From positions 124,001 to 188,000 of the forward strand of contig NZ_KB898876.1 in assembly GCF_000377905.1 (NCBI RefSeq): a DNA stretch of 64,000 bases, read 5' to 3'. Position 1 is the first letter of the stretch. Every line of letters starts with the position of its first letter. Under the pieces are notes generated by a model. The model was not told where the DNA came from. It saw nothing but the letters and a program-made list of their open reading frames with translations, and made no database searches. Shown piece by piece: positions 3,327 to 16,222 of this stretch. The stretch comes from Thioalkalivibrio sp. ALMg11 (GTDB lineage Bacteria > Pseudomonadota > Gammaproteobacteria > Ectothiorhodospirales > Ectothiorhodospiraceae). Position numbers and translations under genes: made by a program.

Positions 3327-3545
3327 TCCGGGGAAGTCGACAGGTGGCCAGTCCTGCAGCCGACGCAGGTTATCTGGGGGATACACGGTCTTGACCAGGA
3401 AATGGGGCGGGGAAGCCTCCCAGAGGGCCGGTTGGCAGGATATAAGCCTCTCGGAGTCAGGTGGTCATCGTGGGTCCGAGCCGCGCCTTGGCTCGGCTCT
3501 CCGCTGGAGGAGCAATAAGGGACCGTCGCGACGCCCGGAATGTCG

Positions 3546-4964
3546 TCAGGAGGTTTCCAGCGGTAGGCGCCCCTGCTCGGCCAGGCGCAAGCAGGCGTCC
3601 ACGGCCTGCGGGTCGTAGAGGCTGCCGCGGTACTTCTGCAGTTCCTTGAGCGCCACCTCCAGCCCCAGGCCCGGGCGATACGGACGGTGCGAGTGGATGG
3701 CCTCGACCACGTCGGCGACCGCGAGGATGCGCGACTCCGGCAGGATGGCATCGCCCTGGAGGCCGTCCGGGTAGCCGGAACCGTCGAGGCGCTCGTGGTG
3801 CTGACGCAAGATGGTGGCCACCGGCCAGGGAAAGTCGATGCCCTTGAGGATCTCGTACCCCGACGCGGCGTGTCCCTTGATCAGCTCGAACTCCGCCGAC
3901 GACAGGAGCCCGGGCTTGGCCAGGATCTCGACCGGGACCGAGATCTTGCCGATGTCATGGACCGCACTGGCTACATGCAGCCCCTTGCGCCGTTCCGCGT
4001 CCAGGCCGAGTTCCACGGCAATGGCGTCGGCGACCTGCGTGGTGCGTTGCTGGTGGCCGGCGGTGTAGGGGTCACGCACTTCGATGGTGGCGGCCATCGC
4101 CTCGATGGTGCGCTCCAGGGAGTGCTCCAGCGCGGCGCGCGACTGCTGCGTGCGCAGGCCGTAGACGAGGTCGCCGGCCAGTTCGTTCAGCAGCGCAATG
4201 TTCTCGGGCTCGGCGAAGGCATCCTGGGTATGCGCGGCGACCTGCAGGCTGCCGAGGCGGCCCCGGTCGTCGTGCAGCGGCAGTACCAGGACGAGCAGGG
4301 CGGGATCCGGCTGGGGCACCAGGCAGGCACCGTCCGGTTCGATGGAGCCGGGGCCGGGCTCCACCCATTCCACCTGTGTGCTGGTCCGATGCTCCGGTCC
4401 GTCCTGCAGCCGGACGCCGGCCGCGGCATAGCCGCCGGTGGTGGTGATGGCGGAGGTCATGCCCTGCAGCAAGTCGTCCGGGTTCTCTGCATGGACCAGG
4501 GCCCGGTTGCCTGCCGAGACGGTGTGCAGGGCGCGGGTGCGTTCGGTGACCAGGGCCTCCAGGGCCTGATGCGACTGGTGCATGGCCAGGTGGCTCTTGA
4601 CCCGGACCAGCACTTCCTCGGCCACGAAGGGCTTGGTGATGTAGTCGACGGCGCCGGCGGCGAACCCGCGCAGCTTGTCCTCGGGTTCCCGCAGGGCGCT
4701 GAGGAAGATCACCGGGATGTCCGCGGTGTCGGGGTCCGCCTTCAGGCGGCGGCAGACCTCGAAGCCGTCGAGATCCGGCATGCGGATGTCCAGCAGGATC
4801 AGCGCCGGATGCCGCTCGGCGACGGACTCCAGCGCCAGCCGGCCACCCGGTGCCACGCGCACCCCCAGCCCGGCCTGCTGGAGCACGTCGACCATCAGGC
4901 GCAGGTTGTTGGGGTTGTCGTCCACCACCAGGATGCCGTCCCCGGTGTCCGGTGACTGTGTCAT
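3546..4964 (-). CDS. response regulator with HD-GYP cyclic-di-GMP phosphodiesterase domain
   Basis: This 472-residue protein has a receiver domain (1-125; phospho-acceptor Asp59 in LILLDIRMPD, Lys111 in ITKPF), a central GAF-like region (about 145-275) and an HD-GYP domain (about 283-465). The metal-binding HDIGK (336-340) and the signature DGSGYPDG (394-401) are intact, so hydrolysis of cyclic-di-GMP is expected. It acts in the cytoplasm as the likely output of the hybrid kinase at 4961-7213: the two genes overlap by four bases (ATGA), a sign of translational coupling. Confidence 0.92.
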   Translation of the reverse strand: MTQSPDTGDGILVVDDNPNNLRLMVDVLQQAGLGVRVAPGGRLALESVAERHPALILLDIRMPDLDGFEVCRRLKADPDTADIPVIFLSALREPEDKLRGFAAGAVDYITKPFVAEEVLVRVKSHLAMHQSHQALEALVTERTRALHTVSAGNRALVHAENPDDLLQGMTSAITTTGGYAAAGVRLQDGPEHRTSTQVEWVEPGPGSIEPDGACLVPQPDPALLVLVLPLHDDRGRLGSLQVAAHTQDAFAEPENIALLNELAGDLVYGLRTQQSRAALEHSLERTIEAMAATIEVRDPYTAGHQQRTTQVADAIAVELGLDAERRKGLHVASAVHDIGKISVPVEILAKPGLLSSAEFELIKGHAASGYEILKGIDFPWPVATILRQHHERLDGSGYPDGLQGDAILPESRILAVADVVEAIHSHRPYRPGLGLEVALKELQKYRGSLYDPQAVDACLRLAEQGRLPLETS

Positions 4965-7213
4965 TTGCGGTCTTCCCCGAGGGCGTTGAGGAGGGTCTCG
5001 TAGCGAAAGGCGTTCACGGCACTGCGGACCGCTGCGGCGAGCTCGGGTTCCTCGTTGCGCAGGGCTTCAAGCCAGTCCGTCATGGCGCGCAGATCACCGG
5101 AGCGCACGGCCCGTGCCAGCGCGTCCCTGCGTTCCGGGGGCAGGGCCTGCAGTTGCGGGGCCAGGGCTTCCAGGTCGCGGGTGTCGTCCGCGGCGGGGGC
5201 CGTGTCGGCCTCCGCGTAGCGGAATTCCACGCCGAGGTGGCGCTGCAGCGTGCCGAAGATGTCGTCGTCGCTGTAAGGCTTGCTGATCAGGTCGGCGCAG
5301 CCCGCCTCGCGAATCTCGCGCGACTGCGCCAGCGATGCCGAGGCGGTCAGGGCCACCACGACCGTGTCCTGGCCGCCGGGGGCTTCGCGGATCGCACGCG
5401 TCGCCTGGTAGCCGTCCATGCGCGGCATGCGCATGTCCATCCACACGAAGTGCGGTTGCCACTCGCGGAAGATCTCCACGGCCTCTTCGCCATCGCGCGC
5501 CAGGCGCACCTCGAACCCCGCCCCCTCCAGCAGCCGTTGCAGCAGGATGCGGTTGGATTCGGAATCGTCGGCCACCAGGATGCGCCAGGTCGGCTGGCCC
5601 GGCGCCAGGCCCAGGATCCGGCGCGCGGGCTGCGTGTCCGGTTCGGGCGCGTCCTCGGGCACCTCCAGCGGGATCTCCGCCGTAAAGCGGGAGCCCTGGC
5701 CCGGGGTGCTGGAGACCTCCACTGAACCGCCCAGCAGTTCCGCGAACTGGCGGGTAATCGGCAGGCCCAGGCCGGTGCCTTCGGTGGTGCCGGCCTCGCC
5801 GACCTGGATGAAGGGTTCGAAAATCGACTCCTGCAGCTCCGGCGCGATCCCGGGGCCGGTGTCCTCCACGATCAGGTGCAGCCGAAGGTCGCCCTCGGGC
5901 GTCTGGGTCTGTTCGGCGCGCAGGTCGACACCGCCGGAATCGGTGTACTTGATGGCGTTACCCACCAGGTTGATCAGGATCTGGCGCAGCTTGCGGGCAT
6001 CGCTGCGGATGAAGCGGGGCAGGGCGGGATCGGTGTCCAGGGTCAGGGCCAGGTCCTTCTCTCGCGCCCGTGCGCCGAGGGTGTCGATGACATCGCGCAG
6101 GGTCTGCGGAAGATCCAGCGTGCCCGACTCTACGGTCTGGCGGCCAGCTTCGATCTTGGCCATGTCCAGCACGTCGTTGATCAGTGACAGCAGGTGATCG
6201 CCGTTGCGCTCGACCAGACCCAGGTGGTCGCGTTGCTCGGACGTCAGGTTGCTCCCCTGCGCAGCCAGACGCGAGAACCCGAGGATGGCGTTCAGCGGCG
6301 TGCGCAGTTCGTGGTTCATGCTGGCCAGGAACACGCTCTTGGCGCGATTGGCGTCTTCCGCCTGTCGGCGTGCGTCGTCCAGCTCCGCCGTGCGTTCCTG
6401 CACGCGCTGCTCCAGGCCGGTGTTCAGCTCGCGAATGTGCTGGGCGGCGGCGTGCTGGGCGCGGATGTCGCGACCCAGGCGCCGGGCACCCACGCCGAGT
6501 CCGGTGACGCCCAGCAGCCACACCCCGGCCAGGGCCGAGAGAGTGACCGTGGCGCTTTGCTGCTCGCGCTGGAGGTAATCACGCAGCGGCACCGCGACCG
6601 AAACGCCACCGCGGATGTCGCCCACCTCGTAGCCCTGATGGCCATGGCACTCCATGCAGCCGCGGTCCACATGCATGGGCGCCATGAACCGCAGGTGGGG
6701 TTCGTCGTCGATCTCCGCGACCTCCAGGCGTTCCTTCGCCTCTTCCTCGAAGGCCTTCAGCGCCTCCTTCTCCCACGGGTCGGGGGCGTTTTCCGAGCGC
6801 AGTGGCTGGAGGCTGGTGATGTTGCCGCGCACCCCGAACAGGTCGCCGAATTCCTCGTTCAGATGGCGCAGCATGTAGGCCGGGTTCATCAGGGTCAGTT
6901 CCTGACCCTTTGGCGTGGTGATGTCGCGCTCCGGCAGGTGCGCGAGATAGGGGTTGGGCTGGGTCAGGTCGCCCACCGGCACGTAGACCCCGCCGTGCAG
7001 CGTGCCCCAGAAACGGAAGGCCTGGTCCTTGTTGAAGTTCGCCCGCGCCTCCTGGTAGGCCAGATCCAGGGTCATCGAGCGGAAGTGATCCAGCAGCCAG
7101 ACGCTCAGCCCGGCAAAGAAGAACGTCCACACCAGGGCCGCCAGCGCCACGGAGATGCGCAGATGGCGCAGCTGGGAGCGAAAGGCGGTGTCGGCGTGGG
7201 CGTCGTCGGACAT
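4961..7213 (-). CDS. hybrid histidine kinase with periplasmic heme-binding DUF3365 (Tll0287-like) sensor
   Basis: This is a 750-residue membrane kinase. A transmembrane segment (about 20-42) is followed by a periplasmic DUF3365/Tll0287-like sensor (about 45-215) that carries a c-type heme motif CMECH (186-190), then a second membrane segment (about 222-242). Next come a coiled coil, the HisKA domain with phospho-acceptor His301 (NHELRTPLN), an HATPase domain (GTGLGLPIT) and a receiver with MDMRMPRMDG near residue 595. The last 100 residues are helical and could be a degenerate phosphotransfer module without an obvious His. The heme suggests sensing of redox state or a gas ligand. Its partner is the overlapping HD-GYP regulator. 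Confidence 0.93.
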   Translation of the reverse strand: MSDDAHADTAFRSQLRHLRISVALAALVWTFFFAGLSVWLLDHFRSMTLDLAYQEARANFNKDQAFRFWGTLHGGVYVPVGDLTQPNPYLAHLPERDITTPKGQELTLMNPAYMLRHLNEEFGDLFGVRGNITSLQPLRSENAPDPWEKEALKAFEEEAKERLEVAEIDDEPHLRFMAPMHVDRGCMECHGHQGYEVGDIRGGVSVAVPLRDYLQREQQSATVTLSALAGVWLLGVTGLGVGARRLGRDIRAQHAAAQHIRELNTGLEQRVQERTAELDDARRQAEDANRAKSVFLASMNHELRTPLNAILGFSRLAAQGSNLTSEQRDHLGLVERNGDHLLSLINDVLDMAKIEAGRQTVESGTLDLPQTLRDVIDTLGARAREKDLALTLDTDPALPRFIRSDARKLRQILINLVGNAIKYTDSGGVDLRAEQTQTPEGDLRLHLIVEDTGPGIAPELQESIFEPFIQVGEAGTTEGTGLGLPITRQFAELLGGSVEVSSTPGQGSRFTAEIPLEVPEDAPEPDTQPARRILGLAPGQPTWRILVADDSESNRILLQRLLEGAGFEVRLARDGEEAVEIFREWQPHFVWMDMRMPRMDGYQATRAIREAPGGQDTVVVALTASASLAQSREIREAGCADLISKPYSDDDIFGTLQRHLGVEFRYAEADTAPAADDTRDLEALAPQLQALPPERRDALARAVRSGDLRAMTDWLEALRNEEPELAAAVRSAVNAFRYETLLNALGEDRK

Positions 7214-7304
7214 GGGAGTGCGAGCATCCAGCGTGACGGACTTCGCAGTTTAGCAGGCATCCCGCCCCGGCAGCCCCTGCGGGTCGATGCGGGAACCAAA
7301 GACA

Positions 7305-7345
7305 CGGAGAAAAAGGACACCGCTGATTTTCTTGACGGTTTGAGG
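7305..7345. repeat. REP-like hairpin, GGACACCCATGA-loop family
   Basis: This divergent copy reads AAAAGGACACCGCTGATTTT and is followed by the family tail CTTGACGGTTTGAGGC. It lies about 90 bases upstream of the hybrid kinase start and may fall within its leader. Confidence 0.55.
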
Positions 7346-7386
7346 CGGGCTGACGAGGTTTCAGGGGGAGAGGGTTAATTGTTCTT

Positions 7387-7548
7387 TTGCGGGAAGCGAT
7401 CTGGCATCAAAGGAAGGGCCGGAAGGCGCCTCGCACGAGGCGTTTCGATTTCGTGACACTGCGCGGGATATTCGGAAGGAAGGAGTGAGCTGATGGCCAG
7501 CGACAACTTGCCGACCGTGGATGGGCAGCACGGAGAGAACGTAAACGA
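7387..7548 (+). pseudogene. truncated copy of the small-protein locus at 13549-13975
   Basis: About 160 bases match 13549-13712 closely, including the leader, the Shine-Dalgarno run GGAAGGAAGGAGTGA and the first codons. The ATG at 7493 starts MASDNLPTVDGQ, matching MDSDNFPSVDWQ of the intact locus. The similarity stops exactly where a GGACACCCATG-family hairpin begins (7546), after which the frame has no resemblance to the intact protein. The remaining bases of 7214-7619 hold two hairpin repeats and no intact gene. Confidence 0.7.
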
Positions 7549-7580
7549 AGAAAAGGACACCCATGTCCTTCTTGTTTTAG
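7546..7580. repeat. REP-like hairpin, GGACACCCATGA-loop family
   Basis: AAGAAAAGGAC and GTCCTTCTT arms flank ACCCAT, so the stem here extends into the usual loop. It marks the breakpoint of the truncated small-protein copy. Confidence 0.6.
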
Positions 7581-7619
7581 GCTGGTCTGAAGAAAGGGTC
7601 AATGGCAGCGCGGCGCGAC

Positions 7620-8183
7620 TTAGATCACGCCGTGGATCAGCCCGAGCTTGATGGCTTCGGATGAATCGATATACCAGTTTTCGAGAGCCCGGGCGCGTAT
7701 CGTCTCGAAATCGACGTTAGAGCCCTCAGCGATCGCGCGGAAGCCCTCCTCCTCGATGACGATCGATTGTTCGATCTCGTGGAGCGTGGCCTTGAGCGCC
7801 GCGACACAGGTACGAAGCGGACCATCGACAACGACCTTCTTTTGCATCTGGCGCTCGTGGATCATCAACCGAGTCGTCTTGGTCAGGAAGCGACAATCGA
7901 CCGGAAAGAATGACATGAAAGTCGTGCCGGCCGAATAGACAGCGACCTTGCCGAGGAAGATCATCTCGCGTCCGTCCTGCTCGCGCAGCAAACGGACGTC
8001 GTCACCCATCACCCGGGCCATCTCGGGGTCGCCGCCAAGGGTGTTGATGGTGATTACAATCGGCCCGGTGTCCGGGCAGCCTTCGAGCTGCTTCCGGAAG
8101 CTGTTATACATGTCCTGATCGACAGTGCCTGATAGGCGTACATGTGGATTGGCAAGCAGGGCGTAACAGTCAGAATCGGGCAT
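7620..8183 (-). CDS. orphan ClpP-like serine protease subunit
   Basis: This 187-residue protein matches the ClpP/crotonase fold and the usual ClpP length. The catalytic triad is recognisable: Ser in VYSAGTTF, His in RLMIHERQ and Asp in WYIDSSEAIKLGLI, which parallels the canonical RDxxxSAxEAxxYGLID. ITINTLGG matches the oxyanion-loop strand. No clpX or clpA ATPase is adjacent. Base composition is visibly lower in GC than the neighbours and repeats flank both sides, so acquisition by transfer is likely. The start at 8183 is the first ATG that fits ClpP length; its Shine-Dalgarno is weak. It could be a ClpP-like decoy or a phage-derived peptidase. Confidence 0.78.
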   Translation of the reverse strand: MPDSDCYALLANPHVRLSGTVDQDMYNSFRKQLEGCPDTGPIVITINTLGGDPEMARVMGDDVRLLREQDGREMIFLGKVAVYSAGTTFMSFFPVDCRFLTKTTRLMIHERQMQKKVVVDGPLRTCVAALKATLHEIEQSIVIEEEGFRAIAEGSNVDFETIRARALENWYIDSSEAIKLGLIHGVI

Positions 8184-8272
8184 CGAGAGGATCCAGCGTA
8201 TAGGAAGAAGAAACGAGTAGCCGTATAAGACTAGTAAATCAGGAAGCGACCCCCTATTCGGTCCCGGCCGCG

Positions 8273-8299
8273 CAGAAGAGGACACGTCCGGTCTTCTCT
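8273..8299. repeat. REP-like hairpin, degenerate copy
   Basis: AGAAGAGGACAC, a diverged loop and GGTCTTCTCT form AGAAGA/TCTTCT arms. It lies upstream of the ClpP-like gene in a 500-base stretch (8184-8680) that has no intact gene and is made mostly of repeat and transposase remnants. Confidence 0.45.
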
Positions 8300-8484
8300 C
8301 ATAGGTGATTCTGCTACCGGTGTACCGCCCGCGCCCTAGGCAGCGTTGTTCAACGGCGGATGCGAGGATGCTGGCCTGTAAACCTGACGTTAAGACTGTC
8401 GGCAGCCTAGCCTTTGGTGAGGATCCTGCTGCCGACGTAGTAGGGCGTCTGTTCGATAGGCCACATTGGTCTACGAGATCTCGT

Positions 8485-8597
8485 GGAGGACGAGGACACT
8501 CATGATCTTCTTGACGGTCTGAGGCGATCGGACTGGGTTTTGAGGGAACGGATGGACCAGGGAGGGTCCTGATGACGCGAGCCAGGAAGAAGCTCGG
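8485..8597 (+). pseudogene. repeat plus 5' stub of a REP-associated transposase
   Basis: These bases match 11342-11453, the hairpin, leader and first codons of the intact transposase. The shared part includes the hairpin repeat (8485-8525), the leader GGACCAGGGAGGGTCCTG and the codons for MTRARKKL (from 8572). After about eight codons the match stops and a different palindromic repeat begins at 8608. It is a stub cut off at a repeat boundary. Confidence 0.7.
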
Positions 8598-8607
8598 TGA
8601 GGTTTGT

Positions 8608-8671
8608 GGGATCAGACCTTGCCTTTTGCCCCTGGAGTTTTCCGGCGGGGACGAAAGGCAAGGTCTGACCC
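8608..8671. repeat. long inverted repeat, TCAGACCTTGCC family
   Basis: GGGATCAGACCTTGCCTTT at the left pairs with GAAAGGCAAGGTCTGACCC at the right, about 18 base pairs around a 28-base spacer. Related sequence occurs at 9230-9254, 18913-18985 and 20996-21072. Confidence 0.65.
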
Positions 8672-8680
8672 TGACGTCTG

Positions 8681-9154: not shown

Positions 9155-9229
9155 GCAAGCTCCGGATGGTGGTTGTGACAGGCGCCCCTGTGTACAGGAG
9201 TGGCGGCCTGAGTGCCAGAGAGCGAGCAT

Positions 9230-9254
9230 GGGATCAGATCTTGCCTTTTGCCCC
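9230..9254. repeat. half copy of the TCAGACCTTGCC repeat
   Basis: GGGATCAGATCTTGCCTTTT CCCC-type sequence matches the left arm of 8608-8671; the right arm is replaced by the hairpin repeat that starts at 9273. Confidence 0.5.
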
Positions 9255-9272
9255 TACAGGTTTCCGGCGGGT

Positions 9273-9309
9273 GAGAAGAGGACACCCATGATCTTCTTGA
9301 CGGTCTGAG
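9273..9309. repeat. REP-like hairpin, best-preserved GGACACCCATGA copy
   Basis: AGAAGA and TCTTCT arms enclose the loop GGACACCCATGA, followed by the tail TGACGGTCTGAG. It sits at the boundary of the transposase tail copy that begins near 9315. Confidence 0.7.
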
Positions 9310-9377
9310 CTGCAATGACGGGGTCGGACCTCCAGGCGTGGTTTGCAATCCACAGGTTGCCGCCTTAATGGGAATGG

Positions 9378-9701
9378 TTACTGGCCTTGGAGTGGCCATT
9401 TGCGGCCAGGAATGGGGGTGCAAGGGGCGGGGTCTTCGGCGAGATGTGTAGCTTCGGCGTCGGTGCGTACGGAGCGATCGACGGTGCGGATACCCAGCTG
9501 TGCCTGGATCTGGCGCACGAATGAGTCGCTTCTGCCGGCGAGTGCCTGGGACCAGCGATCATCCTTCGCGACGGAGTTGTTTCGCAGTGCGTCTGCCACC
9601 CAGGCGTGATGGGTATCGGCGAGGGACTGGACGCAGGGCAGGTCGAGGGCCCGCGTCAGCGCTTTGCGATCGACGATGCGGTAGAGCCGGGGCGGTTTCA
9701 T
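9378..9701 (-). pseudogene. 5'-truncated REP-associated transposase (C-terminal 107 codons)
   Basis: The open frame begins MKPPRLYRIVDRKALTRAL and ends near GRKWPLQGQ. The central WSQALAGRSDSFVRQIQAQL resembles the C-terminal region of Y1/REP-associated transposases. The catalytic N-terminal half is missing. DNA from 9317 to 9530 is duplicated at 1100-1318. The piece lies between a hairpin repeat and the sulfur-carrier cassette, marking the downstream edge of that cassette. Confidence 0.65.
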
Positions 9702-9718
9702 GACTCACTCCGGGATAT

Positions 9719-9928
9719 TTATTGATCTTGCAGGGTCTGCAGATCAACAATCGAGCAACTGGTTTTACGTGTTTTCCGGCAGTCTTGATCGTCTGGCTGA
9801 TGATCGTATGAACAGCTCTTCTGCTGGAGTTCATGATAGTCAGCTTCGCTATAGGCTGTTGCGGGAAGGTTGGGTGGGTAATACACGCAACCCCCGCACA
9901 GCTCATTGACGTCAACCTTTTTTGACAT
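9719..9928 (-). CDS. small five-cysteine protein overlapping tusA
   Basis: This predicted 69-residue protein starts at an ATG inside the last codons of tusA (17-base overlap). It has Cys11 and Cys14 in LCGGCVYYPPNLP, Cys39 in KSCSYD, Cys50 in DQDCRKT and Cys58 in KTSCSIVDL. The even spread of cysteines, the Pro/Tyr-rich loop and the tight coupling to tusA suggest a real gene that may bind metal or take part in persulfide transfer. I do not recognise the family. The region has lower GC than the chromosome average, like the rest of the cassette. The frame could be chance, but its composition is not that of a mirror frame. Confidence 0.5.
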   Translation of the reverse strand: MSKKVDVNELCGGCVYYPPNLPATAYSEADYHELQQKSCSYDHQPDDQDCRKTRKTSCSIVDLQTLQDQ

Positions 9929-10148
9929 AGAACTGGAAGCCTCCCTCGCTCGTCCGAGATTCCACCAATGTGTGGCCAGTCCGTTCACACCAGGCAGGAA
10001 TATCCGTGACTGTTCCGGGGTCAGTGGCGACGATCTCCAGAATGTCGCCACTGTTGATCTTCTTTATGGCCACGTTCGTTTCCACGATGGGCATCGGACA
10101 ACATTTACCACTGGTGTCCAGTTTGCTGTCGGCCTTGATATCAGTCAT
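9912..10148 (-). CDS. tusA: TusA-family sulfur carrier protein
   Basis: This 78-residue protein has the TusA signature around Cys17 (KCCPMPIVE, the CPxP motif), where Cys17 carries persulfide sulfur; Cys16 precedes it. The fold continues through GDILEIVATDPG and ends VKKG. TusA proteins relay sulfur in the cytoplasm; in sulfur oxidisers they work with DsrE-like proteins and with Dsr or Hdr-like enzymes. AAGGAG precedes the ATG at 10148. It lies 11 bases downstream of the DsrE-like gene and overlaps a small Cys protein, so all three likely form one transcript under the TetR-type operator at 10590-10605. Confidence 0.93.
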   Translation of the reverse strand: MTDIKADSKLDTSGKCCPMPIVETNVAIKKINSGDILEIVATDPGTVTDIPAWCERTGHTLVESRTSEGGFQFYVKKG

Positions 10149-10159
10149 GTGTTTGCTCC

Positions 10160-10576
10160 TTAGAAATACTGGCAATGTTCGGCCTTGGCGGCTTTTTCGT
10201 TCAAAAACCAGGATGCGCCGACGATGCCGCTGGCTTCCGGGATCAGGTTGTCCTCGTTCACGCCGAAGATACTGGCCGCAAGGCTGCAGGCATAAAAATT
10301 GACGTTATCGGTGGCCTTGAGGGCCTTGATTACGTCATAGATATCCGGCGGCAATCCCGCCTTCTCGACCTGCTGGCGAACCCAGCCATCCTGATCGGCA
10401 TGCTCCCCCTGGATCACCTGGCCTTGCGCGCCTTCCTCGGTCAGCGCCTTGACCGCCCAGTTCACAAACAGTAGATCGACCTGGGTGCCCTCGGCCCCCT
10501 GCAGATAGGCAAACGCCAGGGGCGTGAGCAGTTTGTCGTACCCGTCTTCGCGAACCACGATTGCAAGTGATTTCAT
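10160..10576 (-). CDS. DsrE-family sulfurtransferase-like protein
   Basis: This 138-residue DsrE/DsrF-like protein has the expected Rossmann-like pattern (MKSLAIVVRED at the start, QVDLLFVNWAV next) and a conserved Cys97 in NFYACSLAASIFG, the position used for persulfide binding in DsrE-type proteins. A second Cys135 is at the C-terminus. It is predicted to be cytoplasmic and to exchange sulfur with the TusA encoded next. CTAAGGAGT provides a strong ribosome site. A perfect 16-base palindrome lies 14 bases upstream of the start codon, so expression is probably repressed by the adjacent TetR protein. GC is lower than in flanking core genes. Confidence 0.88.
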   Translation of the reverse strand: MKSLAIVVREDGYDKLLTPLAFAYLQGAEGTQVDLLFVNWAVKALTEEGAQGQVIQGEHADQDGWVRQQVEKAGLPPDIYDVIKALKATDNVNFYACSLAASIFGVNEDNLIPEASGIVGASWFLNEKAAKAEHCQYF

Positions 10577-10589
10577 TGCTGACTCCTTA

Positions 10590-10605
10590 GAACGAACGTT
10601 CGTTC
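10590..10605. promoter_or_regulatory. perfect palindromic operator upstream of dsrE-like gene
   Basis: GAACGAACGTTCGTTC is a perfect 16-base palindrome immediately upstream of the Shine-Dalgarno of the DsrE-like gene. A near-identical palindrome precedes the tetR-type gene at 11255-11280, which suggests a shared operator. Confidence 0.8.
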
Positions 10606-10650
10606 GGGTTTAGGGACCAAAAAAAGGCCGATGCCGCCTGAACAGGTTGC

Positions 10651-11247
10651 TCAGACCGCCACCGACCGCCAGGCGCTTTGCCAGATCTCATCGAAATACT
10701 CCGGCAATGGCGCATCCAGAATCCCATCCAGACGTAACTGAATTAAGCGCAGCGCGCCGCCAAACACGGCCGATGCCGCGATAATTGGGGTCATCTTCCG
10801 GACTTCGCCGCCCTTCATCCCGGCGGCTACCATCTCGCGCATTTGTACGAAAGGGCGCGAGGAGCAGACCGGTTTCTGATCCGGCATAAACTCCTGATGG
10901 CGGGAAAACAGCATGAACCGCATCACCGCCGGCTCCTGCTCGGTCAGCTGAAAGAGCAGCGCGATCACTGCCCGGCAGCGATCCTGAGCCGTGGCATGGG
11001 TCGCCTCGATCTCACTGAAATGCGACTCCATCCGCTCGACCAGGGTGTCGTAGAGTTTCCGGGCGATACCCTCCTTGTCGCGAAAGTAGTGGTAGATGGA
11101 GCCGGTGCTGACCGAAGAGGCTTTAACGAGGTCCGGAATCGAGGTATTGAAATACCCCTGCTCAGAAAAGAGATTCAGCGCCGCCCCCAGCACCTGTTCG
11201 GTGGCAGGGGTGGTGCGGGCACGTTGGGTGTTGGTACTAGTATCCAT
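10651..11247 (-). CDS. TetR/AcrR-family repressor of the sulfur-carrier cassette
   Basis: This 198-residue protein has an N-terminal helix-turn-helix (about residues 18-63: VLGAALNLFSEQGY, SIPDLVKASSVSTGSIYHYF), the hallmark of TetR repressors. The rest is the helical ligand-binding and dimer domain. Cys127 in PVCSSRPF is the only obvious thiol, a possible but unproven persulfide sensor. Palindromes of the form GAACGAAC..TTCGTTC lie upstream of its own start and upstream of the DsrE-like gene, so autoregulation plus control of dsrE-tusA is likely. It is followed by 74 bases to the next start, with the operator between. Confidence 0.9.
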   Translation of the reverse strand: MDTSTNTQRARTTPATEQVLGAALNLFSEQGYFNTSIPDLVKASSVSTGSIYHYFRDKEGIARKLYDTLVERMESHFSEIEATHATAQDRCRAVIALLFQLTEQEPAVMRFMLFSRHQEFMPDQKPVCSSRPFVQMREMVAAGMKGGEVRKMTPIIAASAVFGGALRLIQLRLDGILDAPLPEYFDEIWQSAWRSVAV

Positions 11248-11254
11248 ACCTTCA

Positions 11255-11280
11255 GACTAGAACGAACATTCGTTCCAGTC
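11255..11280. promoter_or_regulatory. palindromic operator upstream of the tetR-type gene
   Basis: This 26-base near-palindrome has GACTAGAACGAAC on the left and ATTCGTTCCAGTC on the right (11 of 13 positions pair). Its core matches the operator at 10590-10605. It sits eight bases upstream of the repressor start codon. Confidence 0.78.
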
Positions 11281-11341
11281 AATCAGGCTATCCAGGAAAC
11301 GGGAACAAGGAACACCGGGTCGGACCACGATAACCATGCAG

Positions 11342-11380
11342 CGAGAAGAGGACGGCCATGCTCTTCTTGACGGTCTGAGG
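11342..11380. repeat. REP-like hairpin ahead of the intact transposase
   Basis: GAGAAGAGGACGGCCATGCT and CTTCTTGACGG form the usual AGAAGA/TCTTCT-type arms with a diverged loop (CGGCC for CACCC). It is 50 bases upstream of the transposase start, the position expected for a REP substrate of its own enzyme. Confidence 0.6.
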
Positions 11381-11429
11381 CGGCCGGGCTAGGTTCCAAG
11401 GTGAAATGGATGGACCAGGGAGGGTCCTG

Positions 11430-12455
11430 ATGACGCGAGCCAGGAAGGAGCTCGTCTCGATCGAGGCGACGCCGTACTACCACTGCATTGGTCGTTGTGT
11501 TCGCCGCGCGTTCCTGTGTGGCGAGGATTTCTATTTGGGCAAGAACTACGAGCACCGGCGCGGCTGGGTGCTGGAGCGGCTGCGCGCGCTTCAGGACGTA
11601 TTCGCGGTGGATGTGTGCGCCTATGCGGTGATGTCAAACCACTATCACCTGGTCCTGCGGATCGACTCGGAGCGGGCGGCATCCTGGAGCGAAAGCGAGG
11701 TGATGGAGCGCTGGGAGCGTTTGTTCTCGTTGCCGCTGCTGGTGGCGCGGTACCGGGCGGGACAGACGCGCACGGAGGCCGAGCGCGAGCGGGCGCAGGC
11801 GCAGATCGCTCTGTGGCGGGAGCGCTTGCAGGACCTATCGTGGTTCATGCGCAGCCTGAACGAGCCTCTGGCGCGGCGGGCGAACGCGGAAGAGGGCTGC
11901 AAGAGCCGCTTCTGGGTGGGCCGCTACAAGAGCCAGGCGCTACTGGATGATGCGGCGGTGGTCACCTGCATGAGCTACGTGGATCTGAACCCTGGCCGTG
12001 CGGGGATGGCGGACACGCCTGAGGAATCCGATTTCACCTCCATCCAGCAGCGCATCCGGGAACGAGCCAGTGAGCCGGCAGTGGACGGAGACGGGTCCTG
12101 TGAGCGCACGGAACCCCGCCTGACGACGCTGGGTTGCGAGGGCGATGACGGACATCCCAACGCGGTGGTTTTCACCACCGACGATTACCTGGAACTGGTC
12201 GACTGGACTGGGCGCGCGATCCGCGAGGACAAGCGCGGCGCCATCCCGGAACCCATTCCGCCGATCCAGGGACGCCTGCAGATCGATCCGGCGCATTTCC
12301 TCCGGCACATACGCAGAGGCGGAAGGAGCTACCACGTGGCGGCACTGGGCCGTGTCGAGCGCATGCGGAGGGCGGCGATGGATCGGGGCCTGTGCTTTAT
12401 CAAGGGTATCGGTGTTTCGGATCGGATGTTTGTGGAGCATCCAGGGTGTTCTTGA
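11430..12455 (+). CDS. REP-associated tyrosine (Y1) transposase, apparently intact
   Basis: This 341-residue protein carries the Y1/HUH signature: TPYYHCIGRC at the start and SNHYHLVLR with His71 and His73 as the HUH pair. The candidate nucleophile Tyr lies in SRFWVGRYKSQ, followed by CMSYVDLNPGRAGM, a block common in this family. It should nick and join single-stranded DNA at REP hairpins. GGAGGG precedes the ATG at 11430. The length is longer than short RAYTs and fits the long REP-associated group. A hairpin repeat lies just upstream, and several broken relatives lie within 30 kb. Confidence 0.92.
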   Translation: MTRARKELVSIEATPYYHCIGRCVRRAFLCGEDFYLGKNYEHRRGWVLERLRALQDVFAVDVCAYAVMSNHYHLVLRIDSERAASWSESEVMERWERLFSLPLLVARYRAGQTRTEAERERAQAQIALWRERLQDLSWFMRSLNEPLARRANAEEGCKSRFWVGRYKSQALLDDAAVVTCMSYVDLNPGRAGMADTPEESDFTSIQQRIRERASEPAVDGDGSCERTEPRLTTLGCEGDDGHPNAVVFTTDDYLELVDWTGRAIREDKRGAIPEPIPPIQGRLQIDPAHFLRHIRRGGRSYHVAALGRVERMRRAAMDRGLCFIKGIGVSDRMFVEHPGCS

Positions 12456-12575
12456 TGGGGTGCGGGCTGACCTCGTTCATCTGCGACGTTGGGGCGAGTG
12501 ATCGGGTGGATAAACGGTTCGGCCCAGGATCGGACGAGTATGCGTCCCACTGGGTGGGTTTTCTCGGCATAAGGC

Positions 12576-12730
12576 TCATCGGGTCAGTTGGTTAACGTGA
12601 TCCGACCCTGGCCTTCGCATTCGCAGCTTCCGCTCCAGCCCGATTGCGTAGGCCCGCTCCGCCAAGGGCGCGGCCGCGTCGATCTCCCCCAGCAATCGGT
12701 CCCGCCGCGTCTGTTTGAGTGGCGAAATGG
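12576..12730 (-). pseudogene. C-terminal remnant of an unidentified, possibly transposase, gene
   Basis: On the minus strand the frame reads KQTRRDRLLGEIDAAAPLAE followed by RAYAIGLERKLRMRRPGSDH and stops at 12576. The helical, Arg-rich peptide does not look like a mirror frame, and it runs out through a GTCGGATCAC repeat-like sequence as transposase tails do elsewhere in this window. No start or catalytic region is present. The 620 bases from 12456 to 13079 contain this remnant and a degenerate structured element, and no intact gene. Confidence 0.35.
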
Positions 12731-12891
12731 ATATGCGCGCTGCGCGGGATTGTGGGGCGTGTTTGTGTGTCCCCGCACAGACGGGCGCGGGCTGGCTACG
12801 CAGAGTTTTCGGGTGGGTTGGCAATGTCGTCGACCAGCCATTCATGAGGACCGCGGGATGGACTGGAGTTATGCGGGCACCCCGCCCTTAG

Positions 12892-13045
12892 CGCGAGTAG
12901 CGACGTGTCTCGAGCCCCTACGGGTTTGGGGCCCCTATCCCGCGCAATTCTGCGTTGCATCCCGTGCCGGCAGAATGACTACTGGTCTGCGTGACGCGTC
13001 TGATCCCGGGAACAATGGGGCACCGACGCGGACGGGGCCGTTGAT
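12892..13045 (+). repeat. third, degenerate copy of the structured inverted-repeat element
   Basis: From CGAGCCCCTACGGG to ATGGGGCACCGACGCG this region follows the second half of the elements at 15090-15370 and 35473-35740. The central hairpin GCCGGCAG-AATGA-CTACTGG is partly preserved. The bounding inverted repeats and the first domain are not recognisable. Confidence 0.5.
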
Positions 13046-13079
13046 CAGGGGGCCCTTAAGGGGCTCTCAAGGAGAAGAC

Positions 13080-13418
13080 ATGAACAAACCAGCCTTCCTG
13101 CAACCCGAGGCGAACTCTCGGGTGGCGAAGCAGTGCGAGTATCTCGCGGAGGAGTACGGGGCGCAGGTGTTGCGGCCGCTGTACCAATCCCTCAGGGAGT
13201 CCATCGGCGACGAGAGTCTGACCGGCATGAATGCGCCCGGCCCGGATGCCAATCCAGTGGATCAGGCCTGGTTCCTGGTGAAGCTACTCGGCGCCGATGA
13301 TGCACTCCGGGCGATCGAGGGCGCGGTACGCGAATACGCCCAGGACCCAAGGGCCTCGCTGGAGTCGCATCTGCACGTGGTCGAGGCGTGGGGTGAACCC
13401 AAGGCCAGGGCGGGTTGA
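13080..13418 (+). CDS. small conserved-looking protein of unknown function
   Basis: I do not recognise this 112-residue protein. It begins MNKPAFLQPEANSRVAKQCE, is mostly helical and acidic, has one Cys and no signal peptide or membrane segment, and ends EAWGEPKARAG. AAGGAGAAGAC gives a strong ribosome site for the ATG at 13080. It follows a degenerate structured element and precedes a hairpin repeat (13471), so it lies inside the repeat-rich zone. A cytoplasmic protein is most likely. Confidence 0.68.
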   Translation: MNKPAFLQPEANSRVAKQCEYLAEEYGAQVLRPLYQSLRESIGDESLTGMNAPGPDANPVDQAWFLVKLLGADDALRAIEGAVREYAQDPRASLESHLHVVEAWGEPKARAG

Positions 13419-13470
13419 GCATGGATCGACGTTGGCGGTGCTGCCTCAACTGGCGGGCGCGCTTTCCCGC

Positions 13471-13500
13471 GAGAAATGAGGACACCCGCGGTCTTCGTTA
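13471..13500. repeat. REP-like hairpin, degenerate copy
   Basis: GAGAAATGAGGACACCCGCG and GTCTTC retain the loop core GGACACCC with weakened arms. It separates the two small hypothetical genes. Confidence 0.5.
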
Positions 13501-13975: not shown

Positions 13976-14091
13976 CTCGCCCGGCGGCCACAATGAAGAA
14001 AAGCGAGGAATGGGCGGCCGTGTTCAGTTACTGGATGCAATCACCGCCGCCTGGCAACAGGCGGGGTGCACGCTGTGGCAGACGCAGCCCG

Positions 14092-14874
14092 TTAGTTGTT
14101 GTGTTCGGGCGTGGCAAAGAGGCTGAAAGCCAACGGCCGGCCTAATGTGGGGTCCGGCGGTAGTGGAGCCGTTGGGAGCTCCGAAAAAATTCCGGTATCA
14201 AGGACAATCTTCTTGTGGACGGGGCCGTAGTAAAGAAAGTACATAATCCGGGGGCACGCACGGTAGGACGCCACGATATTATCGAAGACACCTTTCGTCA
14301 CGGTGGCATTAAATGGGTCGAACATGTAGATAACAAGAGGGCCATTGGGGATGGGGAATGTTGTGGCGTCCGCCAAGATGGATTCCGGTCGATTGCCAAG
14401 CTTGCGGCGGCCGCAGTAGGAGTCGATATTGTTGTTCGCCTCGGCATGCAGCGTCGTAGAAAACTCAACGCCGACAACCCGCTTGAAGGGGAGCTCGGAC
14501 GCCAGCAGCAGCGTCCGTCCGCGACCGGATCCAAAATCAACGAATGTGAAATCCTCCAGGTTCTTCGGGAGATAAGAGAGCATCGCCATGAAGGGCTTGG
14601 CGGCCGTCGCCTTGTAGATTGTGGCGAATTTCTTGTTGGGGCTGTCCGTATCCAGATGCTCCCGTTTCACAAGACCTCCGGTCTTGATGCCTAAACGGCG
14701 ATCTATGCTTGCGTCTCGCCACAGGTTGAAAGAATGCCTTATATTTTTTGCAGCCAATTGGGCCAGGGTACGTCCTCCATGGCCTTGAAGGGTTTCCCAG
14801 CTTCGCCTGAGAGCCCACCTGATCGAGACCACTGACTGCGTGCGAAACTCCGTTAGCGGGTGTTTTACGGTCAT
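14092..14874 (-). CDS. class I SAM-dependent methyltransferase
   Basis: This protein of about 260 residues has motif I as TFVDFGSGRGRTLLLA (SAM-binding), a following VVGVEFS acidic strand end and VIYMFDPFNATV at the motif IV position. An N-terminal helical region of about 90 residues precedes the fold. The DNA is markedly lower in GC than the neighbours, suggesting horizontal transfer. The ATG at 14874 has GGAG nine bases upstream; an ATG at 14889 is possible. The nearest intact neighbour on the same strand is the truncated secreted-protein gene, so no pathway can be assigned. Substrate unknown. Confidence 0.82.
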   Translation of the reverse strand: MTVKHPLTEFRTQSVVSIRWALRRSWETLQGHGGRTLAQLAAKNIRHSFNLWRDASIDRRLGIKTGGLVKREHLDTDSPNKKFATIYKATAAKPFMAMLSYLPKNLEDFTFVDFGSGRGRTLLLASELPFKRVVGVEFSTTLHAEANNNIDSYCGRRKLGNRPESILADATTFPIPNGPLVIYMFDPFNATVTKGVFDNIVASYRACPRIMYFLYYGPVHKKIVLDTGIFSELPTAPLPPDPTLGRPLAFSLFATPEHNN

Positions 14875-15089
14875 CTGTGCAGGCTCCATATTTATCCGAA
14901 GCGGGGGTCTGATGGGGCTGAGACTGGCGCTTTTCTCTCAGGGTAAAATTTAGACGCACACGGCCCAAGTATTCCGACAATAGGGCCTGATTCGAGCCAT
15001 TGGCGATGGCTGGGAGTCGACGATCTAGCAAAACGCGCCGCCGCCACCGACCCGGGCGGACCGTGAGCGGCCGAGCTCCACGGCGTTAA

Positions 15090-15370
15090 GGAAACACTGA
15101 TTAATGTACGCGTTCGCGCTCGAGTCGCTTTTGCGTGCGGACAAGGCGCGGTGACTGCCGTGCAGTCATTCTGCACAAGGGAGCCGCAACGCCGTGCGCG
15201 CGCAAAAGTGGCCGAGCCCCTGCATTCAATGGCTTTTGGGGTTGGTGCCCCAGGTTCCCCGATCCTGCGTTGCGCCCCTTGCCGGTAGAACCACTACCGG
15301 CTGCGGACCGCGCCTTGTCTCGGAAAACCTGGGGCACCAACGCGAACGTGTACATTAATCATGTGTTTCC
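15090..15370. mobile_element. MITE-like structured element with terminal inverted repeats, copy A
   Basis: The element starts GGAAACACTGATTAATGTAC and ends with its near-perfect complement (ATTAATCATGTGTTTCC), flanked on both sides by TTAA. Inside are two hairpin domains. The first runs from CTTTTGCG to CGCAAAAG with tip GTGCAG-TCATT-CTGCAC. The second runs from GTTGGTGCCCCAGG to CCTGGGGCACCAAC with tip GCCGGTAG-AACCA-CTACCGGC. No transposase is encoded. Copy B (35473-35740) preserves every stem through paired changes. It ends inside the gene read from 15764, which it has truncated. The 480 bases upstream of the methyltransferase contain only this element and spacer. Confidence 0.82.
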
Positions 15371-15764
15371 TTAAGTGGGAACCGTGAGGGGCTATCAATG
15401 GGATCGTAGGTCCCACCAGATTTGTGTAGACGTACTCGGATCGCTGCTCGTCCCATTGCCGCTCCTTTTCAGCGACGTGCATGCGGAACGCTTCAGCCTT
15501 CTCCCAATCCGTGGCTTGCCGGTGTCGCAGTTCCGGTTGTAGCTGCGCTGATTCATCGAAGCGCGCCTGTTCGGGTTCGGCCAGATTCTTCAGGTACGGA
15601 TTGGGCGGGCCCAGGCTGAGGGTTTCCTCCACACCTTCTGCATTGGCAGCACCGGGTTCATCCTCCTGTGCACATGCCGAGGCGGCGAATGGCATACCGG
15701 CCAGGACCAGGCGATAGCGGGTTTGTATGTGGCTCGGCTTGATCAATGGATCCCCTACGGTCAT
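15294..15764 (-). pseudogene. secreted protein gene truncated by the structured element
   Basis: The frame encodes a signal-like stretch RYRLVLAGMPFAASACAQ and then an acidic region with PPNPYLKNLAEPEQARFDES and EKERQWDEQRSEYVYTN. The last ~27 codons before the stop at 15294 are read from the inverted repeat of the element at 15090-15370, so the native C-terminus is lost. The original coding part lies at about 15374-15764. The start is unclear: the ATG at 15764 has no good ribosome site, and an ATG at 15695 lies inside the putative signal. I cannot name the family. Confidence 0.55.
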
Positions 15765-15945
15765 CCGGGCCCGGGCTTGAGCTATTCCAGCAAGCCGGAG
15801 CCGCGTGCCGACGAAAGGATTCAAGCGAATCCCATGCCAAGACCGGGGAACCCCGAAGAAACAGACAGGTACGAGAAACCGGGGGCTGGAATCTGTTCTC
15901 GTGTGTGCCTTTTTGGAAAGAATCCTGACGGTCTGCGTGTCGGCC

Positions 15946-15985
15946 GGAGAAAGAGGATGCCCATGATTGTCTTGACGGTTAAGTG
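15946..15985. repeat. REP-like hairpin in a 400-base gene-free stretch
   Basis: GAGAAAGAGGATGCCCATGA and TTGTCTTGACGGTTAAG are a diverged member of the GGACACCCATGA family. The stretch 15765-16222 has no other feature that I can support apart from the leader of the EamA gene. Confidence 0.5.
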
Positions 15986-16222
15986 AGAGCGCCCAATGAA
16001 CAAGGACGATTCGATTCCCGAGTTCCTGGGCGAAAGCGTCTGACCTCGTTCATTTATGCCCCACAAGACCGCGCAGCCAGCGCTGGTATATTGTGCGACT
16101 GATCTCGGGCGTTAGGCTGCAGCGTTTCGCTGACCGATCGTATAGTCAGTGCGAAACATGTTGCCGACCAGGAGGATCGACGGGTCGGGACTCACTCACT
16201 ACCCACCATAGGGACTGGCTGA

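Follow-up and report, generated by a model that had tools for sequence, protein, structure and literature searches.

A putative sulfur-responsive TetR-DsrE-TusA cassette with paired operators in Thioalkalivibrio sp. ALMg11

The 64,000-nucleotide stretch of Thioalkalivibrio sp. ALMg11 analyzed here (contig NZ_KB898876.1, positions 124,001 to 188,000; hereafter the window) contains a cassette of four minus-strand genes, in the order tetR, a dsrE-family gene, tusA, and a gene for a small protein with five Cys residues, with palindromic putative operators in front of both tetR (O1) and dsrE (O2). The layout of the cassette and its status as a local regulon are well supported. Sequence comparisons further lead us to favor, with modest confidence, an acquired, autoregulated sulfur-trafficking operon in which the TetR protein would be released from its operators upon modification of C91 and C128 by sulfane sulfur. 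In the mechanism we propose, a TetR dimer would bind O1 and O2 and repress both tetR and the dsrE-tusA-five-Cys genes. As cytoplasmic sulfane sulfur (persulfide or polysulfide) accumulates, C91 and C128 would become bridged or persulfidated and the repressor would come off the DNA; DsrE (via C97), TusA (via C16/C17), and the five-Cys protein would then be made and carry sulfur, which would be passed on, probably to an sHdr-like oxidation system whose genes lie in another part of the genome, with a tusA and a dsrE of its own. We infer binding, repression, ligand, Cys chemistry, and sulfur destination: the DNA side of the proposal rests on conservation of the operators, and the ligand and the Cys chemistry are suggested by likeness to the two-Cys repressors SqrR, SoxR, and CstR, which belong to other families.

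Cassette genes, operators, and their conservation

The tetR gene (10651..11247) encodes a 198-aa repressor with C91 and C128 (in CSSxPF), assigned from Pfam, a fold model, and alignments. It is followed by genes for a 138-aa DsrE-family sulfur carrier with an invariant C97 (10160..10576; Pfam and alignment), a 78-aa TusA-family sulfur carrier with a GKCCPMP motif (9912..10148; Pfam, NCBIfam, and alignment), and a 69-aa protein with a CxxC and three further Cys residues (9719..9928; alignment), the last gene sharing 17 overlapping bases with tusA. Coordinates are those of the window, and the reading frames come from a crude open reading frame (ORF) caller. A first-pass annotation of this DNA had given the same gene set, strand, and tandem order; our layout matches that description, the ORFs bear it out, and Pfam agrees for the first three genes (E-values of 2.9e-14 for TetR_N, 9e-08 for DsrE, and 2.5e-24 for TusA). 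The lower GC content reported there is likewise evident, at 0.593 in tetR, 0.578 in dsrE, 0.519 in tusA, and 0.479 in the five-Cys gene, compared with 0.654 for the window.

O1 (GAACGAACATTCGTTC, 11260..11275) lies 12 nt upstream of the tetR start codon and is a near-perfect 16-bp palindrome whose one asymmetric pair is central. O2 (GAACGAACGTTCGTTC, 10590..10605), a perfect palindrome, lies 13 nt upstream of the dsrE start codon. The expected number of occurrences of the perfect palindrome is 0.00 from 100 shuffles of the window, and in a search of the 3.04-Mb genome allowing up to 2 mismatches, O1 and O2 are the only sites with 0-1 mismatch; five further places match at 2 mismatches. A scan around the second tusA, 11 of the 12 other DsrE-family loci (the weakest omitted), and five other regions gave no site with at least 14 of 16 matches, the sole exception among those stretches being a near-site, AACCGAACGTTCGTTC, before a paralogous tetR. 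No operator site was found in the Hdr-like/lipoate/soxB region of the genome. The positions and genome-wide rarity of the palindromes uphold the earlier claim that matched sites precede the repressor and dsrE, and the location of the genome's two close sites, both at the cassette, supports its description as a self-contained regulon.

A genome-contig scan with the DsrE protein recovered 36 related loci (67-96% identity). Many of them bear the names of sulfur oxidizers (Thiohalophilus, Thioalkalivibrio, Sulfuritalea, Sulfuricella, Thiobacillus, and Acidiferrobacter), and others come from metagenome-assembled genomes, unclassified or assigned to Burkholderiaceae or Rhodocyclaceae. In every one of the 36, tusA follows dsrE. 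A tetR relative is present in 35, upstream of dsrE in 34 and downstream in one (L009), and is lacking in L039; in L012 the match is split in two. Of the 36 loci, 20 have the five-Cys gene. The first-pass annotation had called this layout nonstandard: it is not peculiar to the present genome, as 35 of 36 relatives show, and we did not find it described in the literature searched.

Absence of the palindrome from related loci had been named beforehand as one observation that would overturn the regulon, and the operators are present. We scored sites against the consensus GAAYGAAYRTTCRTTC, itself derived from the very sites that it counts, at a threshold of at least 14 of 16 matches and with the window copy included. 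By this measure, 29 of 37 loci have an operator ahead of dsrE and 30 of 36 have one ahead of tetR (the tetR start of L012 was placed by hand), and at least one operator is found in 35 of 37 loci, compared with 0 of 7400 simple shuffles, made of the dsrE upstream regions only. Of the two loci without an operator, L039 also lacks tetR, and L034 has degenerate sites (11/16). Six loci (L012, L013, L014, L016, L017, and L040) have the operator only before tetR, which is consistent with a single promoter for the whole operon there. When 35 tetR-dsrE spacers, including those from loci without an operator, are compared right-anchored and ungapped, there is little column conservation beyond a T run and parts of the operator and of the ribosome-binding region. 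In the window, this conserved T run lies at 10619-10625 on the minus strand, about 43 nt before dsrE; it may be part of a tetR terminator or of a promoter. The only terminator-like site lies inside tetR (shuffle mean, 1.8). On a contig labeled archaeal, L039:1680-2411 carries dsrE and tusA, with neither tetR nor an operator in 4.2 kb; the label may stem from a binning error. Chance was considered as an origin of the operators and is rejected by the window shuffles, the genome-wide scarcity of the site, and its conservation in relatives.

The repressor, the sulfur carriers, and the probable ligand

The repressor has the TetR_N helix-turn-helix domain (53 bits; Pfam cut-off, 24), and its predicted structure is a confident TetR-type all-helical fold (mean predicted local distance difference test score, pLDDT, of 90.5). 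The best structural matches are FadR repressors, with many near ties and a top Z of 19.8 at 19% identity. One of these matches holds stearoyl-CoA (Z 19.8, root-mean-square deviation 2.4, 182 residues aligned), which would suit a classical pocket ligand such as acyl-CoA, with both Cys residues playing a structural role. We consider this improbable: Z reaches 8 or more for 831 of 998 aligned chains, which makes the fold a poor guide to the ligand, and among the 47 scanned of 164 neighboring ORFs collected around the cassettes, the only families matched more than twice are DsrE (five) and DUF411 (four).

Both Cys residues are invariant in a 36-sequence alignment that includes the paralogue from the window's own genome. 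In a set of 72 family members, all 42 cassette TetRs retain the pair, vs 18 of 30 TetRs in other contexts. With context groups assigned by hand, the latter comprise six of ten TetRs beside other DsrE-family or five-Cys genes, three of six beside formaldehyde genes, three of four beside methanethiol oxidase or SoxYZ genes, neither of two beside a metallo-beta-lactamase gene, and six of the eight that remain. Because the sequences are related, we attach no p-value to these counts. The repressor shares two conserved Cys with the described sulfane-sulfur repressors and departs from them in belonging to TetR, not to ArsR or CsoR.

The wider TetR family occurs in 36 of 369 genomes sampled from the class (E up to 1e-30) and in 3 of 398 sampled from the phylum, the window's genome being counted in both. 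We searched 24 of the 36 for sites with at most one mismatch: 15 of these TetR-bearing genomes have one and nine do not, vs 3 of 24 control genomes, for which no TetR match was listed. Nineteen of the 23 sites in the TetR-bearing set adjoin a family TetR, and the four that do not are second sites (G111, G121, G053, and G009). Among eight cassette-bearing genomes searched (G000, G019, G124, G156, G172, G267, G309, and G360), seven have exactly two such sites and G360 a single one, all of them at the cassette; G124 is apparently the Thiohalophilus locus L006 already counted and so is no independent genome. Outside the dsrE-tusA cassette, one recurring context joins tetR to a five-Cys gene and an exported-looking DsrE-family gene (the signal judged by eye), and a family member from another class (L125, 50.5% identical) has a DsrE-family gene next to it and a perfect operator. 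Taken together, the sulfur genes found beside family TetRs are those for exported-looking DsrE, five-Cys, rhodanese/metallo-beta-lactamase, and SoxYZ proteins and methanethiol oxidase. A persulfide ligand is made more likely by this company and by the retention of both Cys in all cassette TetRs.

A second family TetR resides in the same genome (C2:353526-354104; L073:6527-7114). It is 45% identical to the cassette repressor and keeps both Cys; the near-operator described above precedes it, two exported-looking DsrE-family genes lie downstream, and a rhodanese/metallo-beta-lactamase gene adjoins. The acquired TetR might cross-regulate this resident paralogue.

Other branches of the family sit beside genes of thiol and aldehyde metabolism. 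Methanethiol oxidase genes adjoin the TetRs of L086 and L094 (above the NCBIfam MtoX cut-off) and of L107, where the gene is ended by the contig edge and scores 585 of 650 bits; these TetRs are possible methanethiol regulators, and no paper linking a TetR with methanethiol oxidase was found in the literature searched. Glutathione-dependent formaldehyde genes of the frmA type score above cut-off beside the TetRs of L095, L098, L105, L106, and L108, accompanied above cut-off by frmB-type genes in L095, L105, and L106 and by gfa-type genes in L098 and L108; the TetR of L097 adjoins formaldehyde genes by similarity only. In the TetR tree, in which long branches leave some joins unsure, the TetRs of L086, L094, L107, L095, L098, L105, and L106, but not that of L108, fall in one supported clade of 12 rows (95/90).

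Because these sister-clade TetRs adjoin methanethiol and formaldehyde genes, the main rival to sulfane sulfur is a thiol or aldehyde ligand. The repressor would then sense thiols or electrophiles (methanethiol, formaldehyde-thiol adducts, thiocyanate breakdown products, or tetrathionate), and the carriers would be induced within that response. The presence of Thiohalophilus thiocyanatoxydans among the cassette relatives fits such a role. However, C128 is lost in three of the six TetRs beside formaldehyde genes vs none of the 42 cassette TetRs, so that sensing may differ between branches, and the window's cassette contains no methanethiol or formaldehyde genes. We give this alternative perhaps one chance in four.

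The carriers themselves were compared with solved and classified relatives. C97 of DsrE is invariant in 37 of 37 sequences and aligns with a Cys of 2QS7 (SSO1126), the closest solved DsrE by sequence (E 2e-10), which is named DsrE2B in PMC4175335. The Cys-X7-Cys motif that defines DsrE3A in the same source is absent, residue 105 being Gly in 37 of 37. By sequence, then, the cassette protein is a DsrE of no assigned subgroup, nearest to DsrE2B among solved sequences. TusA has the expected domain and the CPxP motif and scores 66.5 bits, below the NCBIfam TusA equivalog cut-off of 78; it is TusA-like rather than the NCBIfam equivalog. The five-Cys protein matches no Pfam or NCBIfam family, its sole PDB profile match has an E-value of 0.073, and its five cysteines show no variation among the 21 aligned rows, one of which is the window's. 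Its fold model was poor (pLDDT 51.2), and nothing was drawn from it. As to the genetic or functional tie with Dsr or Hdr systems that marks DsrE2, the cassette lies on C6, and the Hdr-like, lipoate-related, and soxB genes lie together with the second tusA and another dsrE on C5, a group that we take, from its gene content, to be an sHdr system.

We also entertain, more tentatively and at somewhat less than an even chance, a broader proposal based on the same sequence comparisons. The TetR would be a persulfide sensor that forms a C91-C128 bridge, the cassette a portable module, and the five-Cys protein a new cytoplasmic carrier, and the family would have spread onto DsrE, SoxYZ, methanethiol oxidase, and formaldehyde genes, that is, onto reactive sulfur and thiol chemistry.

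Probable acquisition, flanking DNA, and points against the favored mechanism

Among 30 genomes of the genus, the one with the window is alone in having the dsrE of the cassette (E up to 1e-20). DNA similarity to the three nearest relatives (L005, 87%; Thiohalophilus L074, 85%; L007, 82%, to 11282) covers the whole unit with both operators (9698..11285), and with three relatives further removed the similarity is confined to shorter stretches. Because the similarity stops at 11285, the unit ends about 10 bases past O1. A sister genome, G396, is collinear with the window, with long matches 93-96% identical, and has 124 bases between the flanking matches in place of a segment of 4255 bases holding the cassette (9224..13478). 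Because the dsrE occurs in one of 30 genus genomes and the sister genome is without the segment, the cassette was probably acquired; gain in this lineage explains the pattern more simply than loss elsewhere. The earlier suggestion of a mobile module is supported, as to acquisition, by these three lines of evidence: presence and absence in the genus, the gap in the sister genome, and the extent of DNA similarity.

The flanking transposase relics that had also been proposed fare less evenly. One flank has a plus-strand gene that weakly resembles a REP-associated tyrosine transposase (11406..12455; NCBIfam REP_Tyr_transpos, 40.9 bits, below the cut-off of 80). For the small ORF at 9378-9701, neither Pfam nor NCBIfam gave a match, so its reading as a relic is unsupported. 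DNA comparison shows a direct repeat with a left copy at 8489..8596 and a right copy, 84.5% identical to it, at 11345..11454, where it overlaps the beginning of the transposase-like gene; the repeat occurs once more, in shorter form, at 9275-9309. G396 is also without 3483-8674, which holds a hybrid kinase, and most of 13985-16117. With three stretches missing or nearly missing there, the region has seen several insertions or losses. The hybrid histidine kinase, at 4961-7213, has a Tll0287-like sensor domain, and its part at 4961-6400 is matched in 4 of 29 other genus genomes and not in G396.

Several observations weigh against the autoregulated sulfane-sulfur operon that we favor. At the threshold used, no site precedes dsrE in 8 of 37 loci or tetR in 6 of 36, and the relatives in which operators are conserved are not independent samples. 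Of the ten TetRs that neighbor DsrE-family or five-Cys genes in the absence of a dsrE-tusA pair, four have no C91, which means that bridging of two Cys residues cannot hold throughout the family. The DsrE2B of Metallosphaera cuprina reacted with no sulfur compound tried, and its DsrE3A and TusA reacted with tetrathionate and not with GSSH or polysulfide (PMC4175335). Finally, no sigma-70-like promoter was found at 9650-11400 (shuffle mean, 0.6), although such a consensus scan is weak evidence. This last result would be expected if the cassette were a silent remnant here, left without a working promoter after insertion next to the transposase-like gene. In keeping with such a remnant, this cassette is without the DsrE-family gene found after the five-Cys gene in Thiohalophilus. 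All four reading frames and both operators are nonetheless intact, and similarity to the nearest relatives spans the entire unit; we regard a silent remnant as unlikely.

Relation to known sulfur-responsive systems

Sulfur oxidizers must handle reactive persulfides, and the dedicated sensors of sulfur genes described in the sources at hand are of the ArsR, CsoR, and Fis types. SqrR, SoxR, and CstR form sulfur bridges between two Cys residues (PMC10451225, PMC9774590). The ArsR-type repressors SqrR, SoxR, sHdrR, and BigR are, like the cassette protein, small two-Cys repressors, and they control sulfur genes (PMC10451225, PMC12423496, PMC9774590); they are set apart from it by family, ArsR as opposed to TetR. 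CstR of Staphylococcus aureus is a persulfide-sensing repressor with a dithiol site that governs genes for sulfur handling, among them one for a multidomain sulfurtransferase in its cst operon (PMC5480029, PMC9774590). It belongs to the unrelated CsoR family, however, and its operon has genes that the cassette lacks, namely those for a persulfide dioxygenase and sqr.

Tandem dsrE and tusA genes as in the cassette are found in the dsrE3A-dsrE2B-tusA cluster of M. cuprina and in other dsrE-tusA clusters, and transfer of a thiosulfate group between M. cuprina DsrE and TusA takes place in vitro (PMC4175335). The M. cuprina cluster is linked to hdr-like and dihydrolipoamide dehydrogenase genes (PMC4175335), whereas the cassette lies away from hdr-like genes. 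The pair in the cassette also has its own repressor, two operators, and the five-Cys protein, and the word "regulator" does not occur in the available text of PMC4175335.

Cys-based responses to sulfane sulfur are further known for MarR, OhrR, PerR, OxyR, AdpA, LasR, and FisR (FisR: PMC9774590). Among the matches listed, and in the portions of the sources at hand, no TetR appears with these sulfane-sulfur-sensing families. Most of those regulators serve general stress or global responses rather than being dedicated to a dsrE-tusA operon. FadR-type repressors have the TetR fold in common with the cassette repressor (top Z as above), but they control fatty-acid genes, with low identity in the best match, whereas the cassette repressor adjoins sulfur-carrier genes. 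No TetR tied to DsrE, TusA, or sulfane sulfur was found in the literature searched, which left most subscription papers and bioRxiv outside; in the available text of PMC12016491, TetR as a whole word occurs once, in a strain table, where it denotes resistance.

Sensing of sulfane sulfur is thus known in several regulator families, and what would be new here is a TetR-built sulfur-responsive repressor, its ligand inferred, joined to a sulfur-carrier operon. The repressor may represent a sulfur sensor of a new type. If so, TetR would be a further sensor family, represented by a conserved protein in which both Cys are invariant, with a 16-bp operator of defined sequence and sulfur carriers as its output; a conserved five-Cys protein of no known family would enter the field of sulfur transfer; and the cassette, in an idea that is directly testable, could provide a compact sulfur-responsive switch.

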